Source: an uncultured Pseudomonadota bacterium
GTDB lineage: Bacteria > Pseudomonadota > Gammaproteobacteria > Steroidobacterales > Steroidobacteraceae
Direction: 5' to 3'
Assembly (NCBI GenBank): GCA_903898785.1
Contig: CAIUGU010000154.1
Coordinates: 1-59,384, forward strand
Length of the DNA: 59,384 bases
Below, one piece after another: positions 17,161 through 59,384 of this stretch. Within the stretch, counting starts at the first letter, position 1; each line of letters opens with the position of its first letter. A model generated the notes under the pieces. That model searched no databases, was not told where the DNA came from, and saw only the letters and a list, made by a program, of their open reading frames with translations. The position numbers and the translations under genes are program-made.

Positions 17161-17297
17161 AATAGGTTGCCGGATTCAGGCACAGGGGGCGATGTCGCGC
17201 GGGGAATGTGATTCACGTCCCCGACCCAGGCGGGGATCCTTGTACGACTGCGATGGTTATGCGAGAAAGCCGTGCTGCTCGCGTTCAAGGATCCATG

Positions 17298-19028
17298 ATG
17301 CAAGTGTTGGCGGGGCTCTTCGGCAGGCTGGTGCGGAACGCAACCCTGCTGCTCGCCTCGCTGCTCGCCGCCCCGCTAGCCCAGGCTGCGAACGGGCAGG
17401 ACGACTTCCGCATCCTCTATGCAGAGGCCTTCATGCCGTTTCCGGTCCTTGCACAGGCAACGGCAGCACTGAAGGCGGCGGATGACCCGCTGCTGGCCGG
17501 TTTGCGCTTCGATGCCTTCGGCCGCCGTTTCGAGCTGTCCCTGGAACGCAATACCAGGATCATGCGCGATGCGAAGAGCGCAGGCGTCGCATACCGGGGT
17601 TCGATTGCGCCGCTACCCGGCTCCTGGGTCCGGCTGACCCGCACCGGCAACGACCTGCACGGACTGATCTGGGACGGCTCCGAACTGTATGTCATCGAGC
17701 CGGCCCGCGAAGCCCGCGCGTTCCTGGTGAACCCTGCCGAGTACGCCAAGGGCACCAACGTGATCTACCGGTTGAGCAACACCCTGGTGGATCTCGGTCC
17801 CGGGTTCTGCAGTGCCGTGCCGCCCGCCACACAGGACGACGCGGACACCGGCACCGGCCTGTCGACCTTCAAGGCCCTGACCCGCGACCTCAAGTCCCAT
17901 CTGGTCCTGCAGCAGGCAGCGGGTGCCACGCTGACATTGAGCCTGTCAGCGCTGGGCGATGCCAGCTTCCGGCAAAACTACCCGTCAGAAGCCGAAGCAC
18001 ACGATGCCATACTTATCCGTCTCAACAATGTGGACGGGATTTACAGCGCACAGCTCGGCGTCGAGATCAGTATCAGTAGCGTCGAGGTCTACGACGTTGG
18101 TACCGATCCGTTTAGCTCCACCCTCGTGCCGCGCGACTTGCTGGAGGAACTCGGCAGCCACCGCAGCAACAGTGACACCCTGCAAGGCGACGGACTCACG
18201 CACTTATTCACCGGGCGTGACCTCGGCGGCCCGACTGTCGAGACTGTCGGCATCGCCTTCATCGACACGCTGTGCCAACGGCAATATGGCGTCGGTCTCA
18301 CGGAATCGAGCGGCCGCGGCTCGGTCATCGAGTCGCTCATTGCCGCCCACGAAATCGGGCACAACTTCGGCGCATACCATGATGGTAGTCCTGAATGTGC
18401 ATCGACTCTGCCCGACCAGTACATCATGGGCCCCAAGTCCGCAATTGGACGCGATACCTTCTCCCAGTGCAGCATTGAAGCGATGTCTCGGGCGATCGCT
18501 GCAGCAGCATGCATCAACCCGCTGCCGCCAGCCGACGCGGGCGTGCAATTCGCCGCTGCACCGTCCGGCTTGTCACTCGGGCAGACTTTCAGTTGGGCAC
18601 TCACCGTCACGAACTGGGGAGGCCAGCAGGCCGCTGCGGCGAACCTGGAGGTGACTCTGCCGGGGGAAATTTCATTGGTCAGCGCCTCGGTCCCGGGCGG
18701 CATCTGCACCAACGGGGCGGGCACGGTCCAATGTTCGCTAGGAGCCCTCGCGGGCGGCCAAAGCAGGCTTGTCTCCCTCTCGCTCACGGCGGGGGCAACG
18801 GGACTGTTCTCGGTTACCGCGGTGGCATCCGCGACCAACGACATCAATAGCACCAACGACACGGCGACAGCGACGCTGGCGGTAGACACTGCGATGCCCG
18901 GCGCACCTGCAACAGCCAGCGCCACCAGCAACAGCGGGGGCGGCGGTGGGGGTTCGATGGGCCTGCTGATGCTGTCCCTGATCGGACTGCTGGCCCACGC
19001 GCGCCGGCGCCATTTCCGGCCTGCCTGA
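17298..19028 (+). CDS. Secreted M12-type metalloprotease with DUF11-like domain and GlyGly-CTERM tail
   Basis: About 576 residues. A Sec signal peptide ends AAPLAQA. A propeptide-like region (to about residue 190) precedes a reprolysin-type catalytic domain with the zinc site HEIGHNFGAYHD and a Met-turn (YIMG) about 30 residues later. An immunoglobulin-like DUF11-type repeat (about residues 410-540) follows. The C-terminus is a Gly-Ser run, a hydrophobic helix and an Arg cluster (AHARRR), the GlyGly-CTERM signal cut by rhombosortase before type II secretion or surface anchoring. Start ATG 17298 is favoured by AAGGA six bases upstream; ATG 17295 and 17259 are alternatives. The enzyme is likely extracellular or cell-surface. 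Confidence 0.85.
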   Translation: MQVLAGLFGRLVRNATLLLASLLAAPLAQAANGQDDFRILYAEAFMPFPVLAQATAALKAADDPLLAGLRFDAFGRRFELSLERNTRIMRDAKSAGVAYRGSIAPLPGSWVRLTRTGNDLHGLIWDGSELYVIEPAREARAFLVNPAEYAKGTNVIYRLSNTLVDLGPGFCSAVPPATQDDADTGTGLSTFKALTRDLKSHLVLQQAAGATLTLSLSALGDASFRQNYPSEAEAHDAILIRLNNVDGIYSAQLGVEISISSVEVYDVGTDPFSSTLVPRDLLEELGSHRSNSDTLQGDGLTHLFTGRDLGGPTVETVGIAFIDTLCQRQYGVGLTESSGRGSVIESLIAAHEIGHNFGAYHDGSPECASTLPDQYIMGPKSAIGRDTFSQCSIEAMSRAIAAAACINPLPPADAGVQFAAAPSGLSLGQTFSWALTVTNWGGQQAAAANLEVTLPGEISLVSASVPGGICTNGAGTVQCSLGALAGGQSRLVSLSLTAGATGLFSVTAVASATNDINSTNDTATATLAVDTAMPGAPATASATSNSGGGGGGSMGLLMLSLIGLLAHARRRHFRPA

Positions 19029-36187: not shown

Positions 36188-38050
36188 CTATTTTGCCGGG
36201 GCCGAGTTCGCGTCGATCCAGCGATTGATCTTGCTGTCGAGCACGTCGAGCGGCATCGACCCGTCCATCAGGATCTGCGCGTGAAATGACTTCACGTCGA
36301 AGCGATCCTTGAGGGCGCGCGCGGCCCGATCCCTGAGTTCGCGGATCCTGCGCTGGCCGATCTTGTAGGCGAGCGCCTGTCCCGGCTCCGCGATGTAGCG
36401 CTCCACTTCCGCGACGATGTCCGCCTCCCCCATGGCGGTATTCTGGCGCATGTACTCGATGGCGCGATCGCGCGACCAGCCCTTGGCATGCATGCCGGTA
36501 TCGACGACGAGCCGCACCGCACGCCACATCTCCGCCGTGAGCGAACCGAAGTACTGGTAGGGATCCGCATACAGGCCGAGATCGCGCCCCAGCGACTCCG
36601 CATAGAGTCCCCAGCCCTCGACGTAGGCCGTATCGCCGCCGAAGCGCCGGAAGCGGGGCAAGTCCGCCACTTCCTGCTGCAGCGAGATCTGGAAGTGGTG
36701 CCCGGGAATGGCCTCGTGCAGGAAAATGCTTTCGATCATGTAGTTCGGACGGGACGAGAGGTCGTAGGTGTTCACGTAGAACACGCCCTGGCGCGCGCCG
36801 TCGGGAGTGCCCGGCATGTAGGAAGCCGTCGCCTCGGATTTCTCGCGGAACGGCTCGACCATCCTCACTTCGAAATCGCCCTTCGGCACGACGTTGAACT
36901 GCGCGGGAAGCATGGCGGCGACCTTGTCCTTCAGCGCGCGGTAGGCATCGACCAGCTGCTCGGGAGACTCGAAGCGGAACCTGGGATCCGTGCGCAGGTA
37001 CTCGAAGAACGCCGGCAGGTCGCCGGTGAAGCCCAGCCTTCCCCTCACCTGCTCCATTTCGCCCTTGATGCGCCTGACTTCGTCGAGACCGATCTGGTGA
37101 ATCTCCTCCGGCGTGAGGGAGGTCGTCGTATGCATGCGCACCTGGTGCGCATACCAGGCCGCTCCGTTCGGCAGGGCGGTGGCCGCGATGGTCTCGCGTG
37201 CGGCCGGGAGGTACTCCTTCGCCATGAAATCGTGCAGCCTCCGATACGCGGGCAGCAGCTCTTCCGCAATGGCCTTCGAGTAGGCATCGGCCAGCCGCTT
37301 GCGGTCGGCGGCCGGGATCGAGTCCGGGAATGTCCTGACGGGTGCAGCGAAGAGGCTGGCAGCAGCATCAGCGACCAGAAAGCTCGCCAGCTGCGGGATG
37401 GATTTCTCGACCAGCACCCTGGGCTGGACGACGCCCTGGTCGATGCCCTTCTTCATGTTGGCGACGGCCTGGTCGGCCCACACGACGAATCCCCGCATCC
37501 GCGCCAGGAAGTTGTCGTAGTCCCGAACGGTTGCGAACGGCTGAATGCCATCGCCCGCACCCATCTGGCCGAAGTAGACCGGGAGGCCGTAGAACTGGTT
37601 GAAGGGCAGCAACTCGTCCGGGAAGCGGAAGCCGGCTACAGCCAGCTCGCGACCGTAGCGAAACTGGTCGTAGGTGAGACGGTGCTGCGCATCGAGCGCG
37701 GCAGGATCGACGACCACCACTCGCGCGAGGGCGTCCTGCTCGAGGGCCAGCAGGTCGGCTAGCCACTGCTCGCTCAACGTGTTCGGCAGGCGATCGTTGA
37801 ACCGCATGTCGCCGTTGGCAGTGGCCACCAGCGGATTCAACTCAAGGTACTTCTCGTAGTAATCCTCCACCAGGGCGTCCAGCGCCTGTGTTGGCGTCTG
37901 CTCCGACTCGGCGCCCTTGGCGATATCGGACGGGGGCGACTGACCGCAGGCTGCCACCCCCAACGCGGCTGCGACGAGCAATGCCTTCGCGCCACTGCGT
38001 GCAAGTGAAGCGAAACGGAATCGGCTCGCGGCTGTGCGTGTCATTTGCAT
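36188..38050 (-). CDS. DUF885 lipoprotein, putative metallopeptidase (copy 2)
   Basis: A 620-residue protein of the DUF885 family, which belongs to the zincin-like peptidase group. The signal peptide ends in a lipobox VAAC. The mature chain is mostly helical. The conserved zinc-site region is FLHEAIPGHHFQ, and downstream YVEGWGLYAESLG supplies the second glutamate expected of such sites. Its stop is close to the neighbouring GGDEF gene. It lies six bases downstream of a paralogue of the same length, so they form an operon from tandem duplication. Substrate unknown; a periplasmic or surface peptidase is plausible. Confidence 0.85.
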   Translation of the reverse strand: MQMTRTAASRFRFASLARSGAKALLVAAALGVAACGQSPPSDIAKGAESEQTPTQALDALVEDYYEKYLELNPLVATANGDMRFNDRLPNTLSEQWLADLLALEQDALARVVVVDPAALDAQHRLTYDQFRYGRELAVAGFRFPDELLPFNQFYGLPVYFGQMGAGDGIQPFATVRDYDNFLARMRGFVVWADQAVANMKKGIDQGVVQPRVLVEKSIPQLASFLVADAAASLFAAPVRTFPDSIPAADRKRLADAYSKAIAEELLPAYRRLHDFMAKEYLPAARETIAATALPNGAAWYAHQVRMHTTTSLTPEEIHQIGLDEVRRIKGEMEQVRGRLGFTGDLPAFFEYLRTDPRFRFESPEQLVDAYRALKDKVAAMLPAQFNVVPKGDFEVRMVEPFREKSEATASYMPGTPDGARQGVFYVNTYDLSSRPNYMIESIFLHEAIPGHHFQISLQQEVADLPRFRRFGGDTAYVEGWGLYAESLGRDLGLYADPYQYFGSLTAEMWRAVRLVVDTGMHAKGWSRDRAIEYMRQNTAMGEADIVAEVERYIAEPGQALAYKIGQRRIRELRDRAARALKDRFDVKSFHAQILMDGSMPLDVLDSKINRWIDANSAPAK

Positions 38051-38056
38051 CGGTCT

Positions 38057-39871
38057 TTACGGTTTGCTTTGCCTGTCCGCGGCGGCCAGCCAGCGATCCA
38101 TCTTCGCCTCGAGCACGTCGATGGGCAGGGCGCCGTCCTTCAGGATCTCATTGTGGAACACGCGGACATCGAATCGGTCGCCGAGCGCGCCTTCCGCCCT
38201 GGTGCGCAGCGAGCGGATCCGGATCTCGCCGATCTTGTATCCCAACGCCTGGCCGGGATTCGCAATATATCGATCGACCTCGGCACGTACATCCGAATCG
38301 GCGAGCGACGAGTTGTCCTTCATGTAGCGAATGGCCTGGTCGCGGGTCCAGTTCCGGCTGTGCAGGCCCGTGTCGACCACCAGCCGCATGGCCCGCAGCA
38401 TTTCATCGCTGAGTCGCCCGTAGTACTGATAGGGATCGGCAAACAGGCCGAGCTCGGGACCGAGCGATTCTGCATACAGCGCCCAGCCCTCGACATACGC
38501 CACGTAGTCGCCGCCGAAACGCCGGAAACGCGGCAACGAGGCCAGCCCGAGCTGCATCGACTGCTGGAAGTGGTGGCCGGGAGAGGCCTCGTGCAGCGAC
38601 AGCGTCTCCATGCCGAACTTCGGCTGTGCTCGCAGGTTGAAGGTGTTGATGTAGAAGATACCGGGGCGGGACCCGTCAGGCGATGGCGGCTGGTAGGAGG
38701 CGCCCGCTGCGCCCTCGGCGCGGAAGGCTTCCACCTCGCGAACCTCGTAGTCGAGCGCAGGCGCGCTGGAGAAGAGCCGCGGCAGCAGCGCATCGATCTT
38801 CGTCTTGAGTTCCCGATACCCGGCCAGCAAGGCGGCAGGACGCTGGTAGTAGAAGCCCGGCTCGGATTCGAGGTGCCGGAAGAAGGCCGGGAGATCCCCC
38901 TTGAATCCCACCTGGTCCTTCACCTTTTCCATTTCCGCGCGAATGCGCGCGACTTCCTTGAGTCCGATCTCGTGGATCTCGTCTGGGGCGAGGCTGGTCG
39001 TCGTCATGACTTCGGTGAGGAACCGGTACCATGACGCACCGTCCGGCAACGCACTCCACGCCACGCTGTCCCGGGTCGCGGGCAAGTAGTCCCTGCGAAT
39101 GAAATCGGACAGGCGTCCATAGGCGGGCAGTACCGTCGCGTCGATCGTGCGCCGATATTCCGCCGTCAGTCGTTCCTTGTCGGCGTCGGCAATGCCTGGC
39201 GGCAGGTGCGCAACCGGCTGGTAAAAGAGGCTGTCTTCCACGGTCACGCCACCGAGTTCGTCCAGCTGCTTCAGCGCCGCTTCCATCACGATGCGCGGCT
39301 GCACGACCTGCCGGGCCATCCCCTCCCGCATGTTCAGGATGGCCTGGTCCACCCAGACCGAGAAGTCCCGCATCCTGCCGAGGAAGTTCTCGTAATCCGC
39401 GACAGTCGAAAACGGTTGTGCGCTGGTGCCGGATCCCAACTGCGCGAACATCGAGGGCAGCGAATACAGCTGGTCGATCGGCAGCAGCCGACCGGGAAAC
39501 GACAACCACTTCAGCGCCGTGGTGCGTTCGCGCACGAAAATATCGTAGGTGAGACGGTCCTGCTCGCCGAGGGCGTCGACGGGGATCTCCCCTGCTTGTG
39601 CGAGGAAGCGCTGCTCCAGCTCGCGACGGCGCGCGATGTGCTCGGGAGAGAGGTCGTTCGCCAGGCGATCGTTGTACCGGGGATCGCCGATGAAGGTGGC
39701 GAACAGCGGATCGAGCGGCAGCAGTTCGTCGAAGTACTGTTCGACCAGCACCTCCAGCTCCTTGCCGACGTTCCGCACCTCGGGTGCTTGCGGCTGCGAG
39801 CAACCGCCGATCGCGAGCGACGCCGCACACGTCACGGCGCGCCACCAGCGTTGTCGGATAGGCGGGAACAT
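38057..39871 (-). CDS. DUF885 lipoprotein, putative metallopeptidase (copy 1)
   Basis: A 604-residue DUF885 protein with a lipobox IGGC followed by Ser, indicating an outer-membrane lipoprotein. The metal-site motif reads LHEASPGHHFQ and the second part YVEGWALYAESLG; both align with the downstream copy. Regions such as TTTSL-PEEIH are also shared. The first of the two genes, it probably carries the promoter of the pair. Divergence at many positions indicates an old duplication. Confidence 0.85.
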   Translation of the reverse strand: MFPPIRQRWWRAVTCAASLAIGGCSQPQAPEVRNVGKELEVLVEQYFDELLPLDPLFATFIGDPRYNDRLANDLSPEHIARRRELEQRFLAQAGEIPVDALGEQDRLTYDIFVRERTTALKWLSFPGRLLPIDQLYSLPSMFAQLGSGTSAQPFSTVADYENFLGRMRDFSVWVDQAILNMREGMARQVVQPRIVMEAALKQLDELGGVTVEDSLFYQPVAHLPPGIADADKERLTAEYRRTIDATVLPAYGRLSDFIRRDYLPATRDSVAWSALPDGASWYRFLTEVMTTTSLAPDEIHEIGLKEVARIRAEMEKVKDQVGFKGDLPAFFRHLESEPGFYYQRPAALLAGYRELKTKIDALLPRLFSSAPALDYEVREVEAFRAEGAAGASYQPPSPDGSRPGIFYINTFNLRAQPKFGMETLSLHEASPGHHFQQSMQLGLASLPRFRRFGGDYVAYVEGWALYAESLGPELGLFADPYQYYGRLSDEMLRAMRLVVDTGLHSRNWTRDQAIRYMKDNSSLADSDVRAEVDRYIANPGQALGYKIGEIRIRSLRTRAEGALGDRFDVRVFHNEILKDGALPIDVLEAKMDRWLAAADRQSKP

Positions 39872-57524: not shown

Positions 57525-58892
57525 TCAGTCGTCGGGCGACTGCCTGAAATCCACGCCGAGCAACCGCAGCTTCCGGTAAAGGTGCGTGCGCTCCATGCCG
57601 ACCCGCTTGGCGAGCTGTCCCACCTTGCCGTTGCAGAGAATCAGCTGCTGCTGCAGGTAAGCACGCTCGAACTGTTCGCGGGCTTCCCTCAAGGGCAGTG
57701 CCAGCAGGTCCTGCTTCACGAGTGGCTCGCTGGAAAGAGTCCGGGCCGCCAGTTCCCGCTCCACTTCTTCGAGGCCGATTTCCTCGGGCCCGCCAAGAAT
57801 CAGCAGGCGCTTGACGAGGTTCCTGAGCTCGCTGACGTTTCCCGGCCAGGGATAGTTGCGCAGCCGGTTCTGCGCGGCGACGCCGAAGCGGCGGAACTGC
57901 AGTTGCTCGTCATCGACGAGACGGTCGACGTAGTACCGCAGCAGGTCCGGCACGTCCTCGGAGTAGTCACGCAGCGGCGGGATGTGCAGCTTGATGACAT
58001 TGAGGTGCGAGAGCAGGTCTACGCGCACGGATCCGGAATCGCCTGCCTGGTCGATGCCGGGGCGCGCGGAACAGATCAGCCGCACATCGAGGGGGACCGC
58101 ACGTTGGCCGCCCACCCTGAGGAAGGAACGGGACTCGAGGTCCGCCAGCAACAGGCGCTGCACGGCCGGCGACAGGTCCTCAAGACCGTTGACGAACAGG
58201 ACGCCGCCATTGGCCTGTTCCAGCAACCCGGTGCGCACACCATCGGCATTCTCCGATCCGTGCATCAGGGCAGTGGCGTGTTCGTCACCTACGCCAGCGC
58301 CGATGATCGTGACGAACGGACCGGTGGCCCGCTTCGACAGCGAATGCAGGTAGCGCGCAAACGCCTCGCGTCCCGTCCCGGGTTCGCCGATGATGAGGAC
58401 CGAGGCGTCATGCGGAGCAACCTGGTGGACCTGCTCGCGCAGGGCCTGCATGACCCTGCTCTTGCCCACCGGAGCCACGACCGGTGCCGACAAGGCACGC
58501 GGAACGTGGCGCTTGTACTTGCCGGACTCCAGCGCACGCTCGACGGTTCGCAGCAGCTTCGCCAGCGACAGCGGCTTCTCGATGAAATCGTAGGCTCCGA
58601 GGCGTGTTGCCTCGACCGCCGTTTCGACGCTGCCATGACCCGACATCATCACGACGGGACAGGGCAGGCCCGAGGAGGACTGTGCCCACTCGCGCAACAG
58701 CGTGATGCCGTCGGTATCGGGCATCCAGATATCGAGCAGGATCAGGTCAGGTTCGTGCTTCGCCCGTCGCGATCGCGCTTCTGCAGCGTCCGCCGCCGAT
58801 TCGACGTCGAAGCCTTCGTCCGCCAGGATTTCCTGCAGCAGGCCGCGGATTTCCGATTCGTCGTCCACCACCAGGATTCGTGGCCCACTCAT
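57525..58892 (-). CDS. ntrX: NtrX-like response regulator with a degenerate AAA+ domain
   Basis: A 455-residue NtrC-family regulator. The receiver domain has phospho-Asp54 in ILLDIWMP and Lys in FIEKPLSL. The central AAA+ domain lacks key parts: the Walker A sequence reads GEPGTGRE, with Arg175 for the Lys; Walker B has FVNG in place of a D-E pair (N235-G236); there is no GAFTGA loop; sensor I reads CSARPG rather than ATN. The C-terminal Fis-type HTH ([22 protein letters not shown]) is intact. Start ATG 58892 overlaps the NtrY-like kinase stop by four bases, indicating a TCS operon. It should act as a DNA-binding regulator rather than a sigma-54 ATPase activator. Confidence 0.88.
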
Positions 58893-59384
58893 GCGCGTTC
58901 CCTTCTGGTTTCACTGTAGCGTGGCTCGCGCGCCAGCAAGGCGGCACGCGTGGCTTCGGTCAGAGGCAGCTCGATCCGTACCCGGGCACCGCCTTCGCGG
59001 CGGTTCTCGGCCTCGATGCGGCCGCCGTGTTCCTCGACGATCTTCTTGACGATGGCGAGGCCGAGCCCCGTGCCCCGGGTCTTGCTGGTGACGTACGGAT
59101 CGAACACTTGCCCGATGAGGTCGGGTTGAAAGCCGGGGCCCGTGTCTTCGACGACGATTTCCGCGAGCTCGAGAGGCGGACGCGACAGGCCGTGGGTCCG
59201 GATCGTGATCTCCGCGCCGGCCTGGCCTTCGAGTGCCTCTACTGCGTTCGTCAGCAGGTTGTGCAGGATCTGCCTGACGCGACCGCGATCAGCTTCGATC
59301 TCCGGCAGGGCGGCGTCGAGGTCCAGCAGCAACCGCCGCTGCGAATCCTGCGAGCGATAGAGATCGACGACTTCCGTGACGAGC
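58889..59384 (-). CDS. ntrY: NtrY-like sensor histidine kinase, C-terminal part
   Basis: The frame is open to the right edge of the window, so the N-terminus with the sensor, HAMP and phospho-His parts is missing. The C-terminal ATP-binding domain is complete: N-box [11 protein letters not shown]1 box [10 protein letters not shown]-box [13 protein letters not shown]2 box [12 protein letters not shown]. The [11 protein letters not shown] form is typical of NtrY. Coupled to the NtrX-like gene by a four-base overlap. The kinase probably phosphorylates that regulator. Confidence 0.9.

Follow-up and report, generated by a model that had tools for sequence, protein, structure and literature searches.

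Among NtrX regulators, the absence of GAFTGA from some members is already known (PMC5744179, PMC10274813), and four NtrX classes are mentioned in a review. In the alphaproteobacteria, structures of Brucella abortus NtrX (PDB 5m7n, 5m7o, and 5m7p) were reported by Fernandez et al. 2017, as cited in PMC7240162. Among the betaproteobacteria, PlrR/NtrX belongs to the Bordetella PlrSR system (PMC13001219), and NtrX of Herbaspirillum is the subject of Bonato et al. 2016, as cited in that same paper, where beta NtrX are described as devoid of an AAA+ domain (PMC13001219). Elsewhere in the bEBP family, TyrR, DhaR, and HupR lack GAFTGA and act with sigma-70 (PMC3162934), and sigma-70 action has also been reported for the GAFTGA-less NtrC of Rhodobacter capsulatus and Caulobacter (PMC10274813).

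The window analyzed here is a whole contig of 59,384 nucleotides from an uncultured member of the Steroidobacteraceae, and it carries near its right end, on the minus strand like all features of the locus described below, a gene for an NtrX-like response regulator of 455 aa (57525..58892). The best NCBIfam model for the protein was NF051870 NtrX (389.9 bits, E 1.6e-116), the equivalog cut-off of 600 not being reached. Its domain order is a receiver (residues 4 to 121; 58530..58883; Pfam PF00072, 1e-28), a degenerate AAA+ core (residues 141 to 308; 57969..58472), a lid, and a Fis-type helix-turn-helix (HTH; residues 405 to 447; 57552..57680; PF02954, 3.4e-07, above the Pfam cut-off). The core (PF00158) and the lid (PF25601) also passed their Pfam cut-offs, the former scoring 115.8 bits versus 229 bits for an intact paralogue of the same genome. 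The ntrY histidine kinase gene lies upstream and overlaps ntrX by 4 nt; its 3′ end, the last 164 codons, is on the contig (58889..59384; HATPase_c, 2.7e-27), with the rest beyond the contig end. The coupled NtrY-like kinase proposed in the sequence-only reading is therefore real, and a full-length copy in a congener shows NtrY_N, HAMP, PAS, HisKA, and HATPase domains. In congener G001, the locus reads def, fmt, rsmB, DUF4390 (PlrP), ntrY, and ntrX, followed by convergent SPOR, argS, and priA genes (def, fmt, argS, and priA were named from translations only). DUF4390 (PlrP) and rsmB lie 5′ of ntrY in congener L266 and in most gamma and beta loci; in the contig itself, this region falls past the contig end.

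The contig's NtrX resembles alpha NtrX such as that of Brucella in domain order, sequence (38 to 40% identity), lack of GAFTGA, and possession of a cognate NtrY. The alpha proteins differ in that they keep the Walker A Lys and nearly all have DE and both Arg fingers, and their ntrYX locus is mostly without the DUF4390 gene (also PMC13001219). With the beta PlrR/NtrX proteins, it shares the rsmB-plrP-ntrY-ntrX locus, the conserved receiver, and the lack of both GAFTGA and the Walker A Lys (PMC13001219), but these are about 420 aa long, mostly carry a hydrophobic residue in place of the Arg, and have much shorter pore loops. TyrR, DhaR, HupR, VpsR, and the R. capsulatus and Caulobacter NtrC proteins (PMC3162934, PMC10274813, PMC9303241) share with the contig's NtrX a bEBP ancestry and the loss of the sigma-54 contact loop; they are DNA-binding regulators at sigma-70 promoters, although they belong to another subfamily and another locus. 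Moreover, Caulobacter NtrC needs its Walker A and B residues, whereas the contig's NtrX has lost both motifs.

Motif positions were set by alignment to Brucella NtrX, the closest solved structure, and to other solved relatives. The Walker A segment reads GEPGTGRE (residues 169 to 176; 58365..58388), in which Arg175, encoded by CGC, replaces the lysine. The Walker B segment reads LFVNGLEDL (residues 232 to 240; 58173..58199), in which D-E, whose Asp helps hold Mg2+, is replaced by N235-G236. No GAFTGA is present in the L1 loop (residues 211 to 225; 58218..58262), and the L1 region measures 24 aa versus 29 aa in GAFTGA proteins. Sensor I is canonically ATN/ATH (V/I-I-A-A-T-N/H), but the corresponding region, LICSARPG (58056..58079), carries CSAR. 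All four of these changes had been called from the letters alone, and each was borne out by the alignment, which revealed two further losses. In the arginine-finger helix (57996..58028), the first Arg, R290, is kept and the second is replaced by H296, and at sensor II (57819..57848), Ser354 takes the place of Arg. Of the features of a functional sigma-54 bEBP, GAFTGA, the Walker A Lys, the Walker B Asp-Glu, the second Arg finger, and sensor II are all missing, and R290 is retained. The receiver and HTH, by contrast, are intact, as had been proposed: D10, D11, D54, S84, and K106 are all present and do not vary across a 68-sequence alignment (the codon of the phospho-acceptor Asp54 is at 58731-58733), and the HTH domain is recognized by Pfam as given above. 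The lesions are not assembly errors, since they are shared with congener G001 (99% complete), whose NtrX is 93% identical and shows the same lesions apart from neighboring changes; lesions of the same class recur in dozens of independent assemblies.

The spread of the losses was then assessed with orthologues from relatives, from a species-level genome collection, and from 276 genomes drawn across the class, aligned with paralogues to a total of 237 sequences, some of which are duplicated by the presence of the same genome in two collections. Within the contig's order, the Walker A Lys was missing from all 36 NtrX proteins (35 Arg and 1 Pro), the Walker B Asp from 34 of 36, and GAFTGA was found in 0/36. 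The possibility that orthologues generally keep intact Walker motifs and GAFTGA, which would have made the contig's gene a local exception, thus found no support in the order (0/36 intact). The 15 AAA+ (bEBP) paralogues sampled from the same order all retained Lys, DE, a GAFTGA-type loop, both Arg fingers, and sensor II, which vouches for the alignment and for the genomes. Other NtrX proteins drawn from the class kept the Lys in 91/106 cases and had lost the Walker B Asp in 65/106. Among alpha NtrX, the Lys was present in 37/37 (misnamed L088 set aside), with DE and both Arg fingers in nearly all, and the named beta NtrX had lost Lys and Asp in 8/8. By group, nearly all alpha proteins have intact ATPase residues, gamma proteins have lost them patchily, and beta proteins have all lost them. 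Woeseiaceae-like members combine a Walker A Arg with a Walker B DE or near form. GAFTGA was found in none of the alpha-, beta-, and gammaproteobacterial NtrX sampled in the 237-sequence alignment; it does occur in the NtrX-like proteins from four records whose labels read deltaproteobacterial or Desulfobaccales. The record set aside, L088 (JAHEKG010000037.1), is entered as "Rhodospirillales bacterium" and carries an NtrX identical to that of G026, a genome of the contig's order; it is probably misnamed or mis-binned.

When the tree was built with the motif columns left out, the contig's NtrX fell in a 47-row clade that is entirely without Lys (46 Arg and 1 Pro; SH-aLRT 84), nested in a larger group with better support (97) to which the beta proteins also belong. 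The tree as a whole requires at least 8 Lys/non-Lys changes and at least 14 at the Walker B Asp, indicative of recurrent decay. The P-loop Arg of the contig's clade, however, is not a drifting residue. Arg175 is kept in 45 of 46 members through five codons (CGC, CGG, CGT, AGG, and CGA), and the other positions of the GExGxGR P-loop are similarly conserved (G169, 45/46; G172, 46/46; G174, 44/46), whereas the Walker B Asp position varies among N, S, D, H, G, A, E, and Q. Between the contig's ntrX and that of the congener, dN/dS came to 0.039 over the full gene and to 0.051 within the AAA+ core, low values that show purifying selection, although the ratios are rough with dS near 1. With per-domain branch lengths fitted on one topology, the AAA+ core/REC tree-length ratio was 1.91 in the contig's clade, 1.31 in a gamma clade whose members mostly keep the K, 0.77 in the alpha proteins, and 3.18 in the beta proteins; for intact NtrC-like paralogues, represented by 3 rows only, it was 0.30. 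Within the contig's clade, the HTH evolves slowest and the AAA+ core fastest. A lid segment (57837..57893), found also in other gammaproteobacterial NtrX, is nearly invariant in the clade and forms a candidate contact surface; its QNRLRN part does not occur in the intact paralogues. Since the HTH is the slowest domain and this lid segment is nearly invariant, constraint has moved from the catalytic core to the lid and HTH. The expectation of a relaxed ATPase constraint with retained DNA binding is borne out by the per-domain rates and dN/dS, but simple relaxation does not describe a protein in which the Walker A Arg and the lid segment are conserved.

A structure model of the contig's NtrX computed from 68 sequences retained the fold, with a mean pLDDT of 88.5. 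Its best whole-chain match was Brucella NtrX (Z 30.8), at 14.3 Å over 428 residues because the domains are placed differently, and its AAA+ part superposed on FleQ with a Z of 28.5 and an rmsd of 2.3 Å over 244 residues. Four beta NtrX proteins (L087, L102, L113, and L128) scored between 1e-35 and 1e-45 against Pfam PF14532, and the modeled structure of L087 has an AAA+ fold matching NtrC1 at 1.9 Å over 215 residues. The pore loops of beta NtrX are reduced from 29 to 12 residues in L1 and from 25 to 15 in the L2 hairpin. Contrary to their description in the literature, beta NtrX still have a degenerate AAA+ fold, as judged by Pfam and by this model of one of them.

Of 40 relatives, 38 carry rpoN, as does the contig's genome; in G000 and further genomes of the order, NtrX is accompanied by intact bEBPs. 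Since sigma-54 persists in these genomes, it is the regulator that left sigma-54 and not the reverse, and loss of rpoN was rejected as the driver of motif loss. Three near-complete genomes (G074, G114, and G309; L268-L291) encode NtrX and gave no rpoN match, but all three hold GAFTGA-type bEBPs, so that rpoN is probably missing from the assemblies; they were set aside as evidence for rpoN-free NtrX. Genome G199 (L298), which lies outside the contig's order, has an fmt-DUF4390-ntrY-ntrX-trkA-trkH locus, and its NtrX, with a Walker A of GEPGCEFL and no GAFTGA, is the sole PF00158 protein of the genome. Neither RpoN domain family (DBD or CBD) was found in this single draft, which is 98% complete. 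Although it is one draft genome from another order, G199 is the strongest pointer to sigma-54-independent action, and a sigma-70 reading gains support from its keeping NtrX without detectable rpoN.

Thus, we consider it likely that the contig's NtrX is a phosphorylation-controlled regulator of the sigma-70 type built on a non-hydrolysing pseudo-ATPase scaffold. It would belong to the beta/gammaproteobacterial NtrYX system (rsmB-DUF4390/PlrP-ntrY-ntrX), in which NtrY would phosphorylate Asp54 of NtrX. Phosphorylation may alter the contacts between receiver and AAA+ domain and, through them, dimerization or oligomer state and DNA binding by the Fis-type HTH, and promoters served by sigma-70-type RNA polymerase would be activated or repressed by NtrX, through simple recruitment or through steric hindrance. 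The AAA+ domain would neither hydrolyse ATP, a point read from its residues, nor remodel sigma-54 polymerase, and may be kept as a structural scaffold or oligomerization module, with the conserved lid surface as a likely contact site. The sigma-70 partnership, the oligomer state, and phosphorylation as the switch are what we infer from these data together. The part that does the work is likely to be DNA binding under phosphorylation control, since the receiver is intact, the kinase and partner genes are conserved, and the HTH is the most constrained domain. The conserved P-loop glycines and the fixed Arg nevertheless argue that the pocket may still do something.

This last point is taken up by a reading that we regard as possible but doubtful, in which a nucleotide (ATP/ADP) or a different ligand, for instance c-di-GMP, is bound by the AAA+ domain but not hydrolysed, and the Arg175 P-loop forms a ligand-locked switch gating oligomerization at sigma-70 promoters. 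The GExGxGR motif is nearly intact with its Arg maintained by selection, Brucella NtrX was crystallized with ATP and ADP (5m7n, 5m7p), R. capsulatus NtrC requires ATP binding but not hydrolysis (PMC10274813), and c-di-GMP is used by VpsR and FleQ (PMC9303241). Binding without hydrolysis is also left room by the Woeseiaceae-like members, because they keep the Walker B DE or a near form. It fits poorly, however, with the loss of the Walker B Asp in 34/36 proteins of the order, the erosion of the second Arg finger and sensor I, and an AAA+ core that is the fastest-evolving domain. Somewhat less likely still, in our estimate, is that the P-loop Arg is an adaptive replacement and not decay, and that throughout the order the Arg-locked, non-hydrolysing AAA+ domain and the nearly invariant lid patch together give NtrX a new interface, gated by phosphorylation, with sigma-70 RNA polymerase or a partner. 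If so, a motor would have turned into a static allosteric platform, with beta NtrX, both pore loops deleted, as the end state.

We think it improbable that NtrX serves as a helper subunit that combines with an intact bEBP or vies with it for sites, modulating sigma-54 promoters without an ATPase of its own. The wide occurrence of rpoN among the relatives, and the intact bEBPs found beside NtrX in the order (G000 among others), would permit this, but G199 keeps its NtrX pseudo-ATPase with no sigma-54 or other PF00158 protein detectable, and the NtrX HTH (ERTHLYRKL) is unlike that of the paralogues, e.g., GRNTLTRKL. Local pseudogenization in the contig's genome, whether it affected the AAA+ domain or the gene as a whole, is suggested by several broken catalytic motifs in one gene but can practically be dismissed, given the uninterrupted frame, a dN/dS of about 0.04, the same kinds of lesion throughout the order, and the conserved locus.

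The label of sigma-54-dependent activator, routine for NtrX, appears wrong in gamma- and betaproteobacteria. The proteins compared here can be ordered in a natural series that starts with GAFTGA-bearing relatives, passes through GAFTGA-less ATP-binding forms and Arg-locked pseudo-ATPases, and ends with proteins that have both pore loops deleted, and this series makes testable what role is left to a bEBP AAA+ domain after ATP hydrolysis and sigma-54 are gone. In the literature we found no description of a Walker A Arg in gammaproteobacterial NtrX or of its spread over the order, and none of the graded series, of a control with paralogues, or of the conserved patch in the lid, though Atack et al. 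2013 and Bonato et al. 2016 may cover part of this.

Two other regions of the contig drew our attention. Two adjacent full-length DUF885 genes of about 600 aa each lie at 36188-39871 on the minus strand, an apparent tandem duplication, and a gene at 17208-19028 on the plus strand encodes a reprolysin-like M12B metallopeptidase domain followed by a DUF11 domain.
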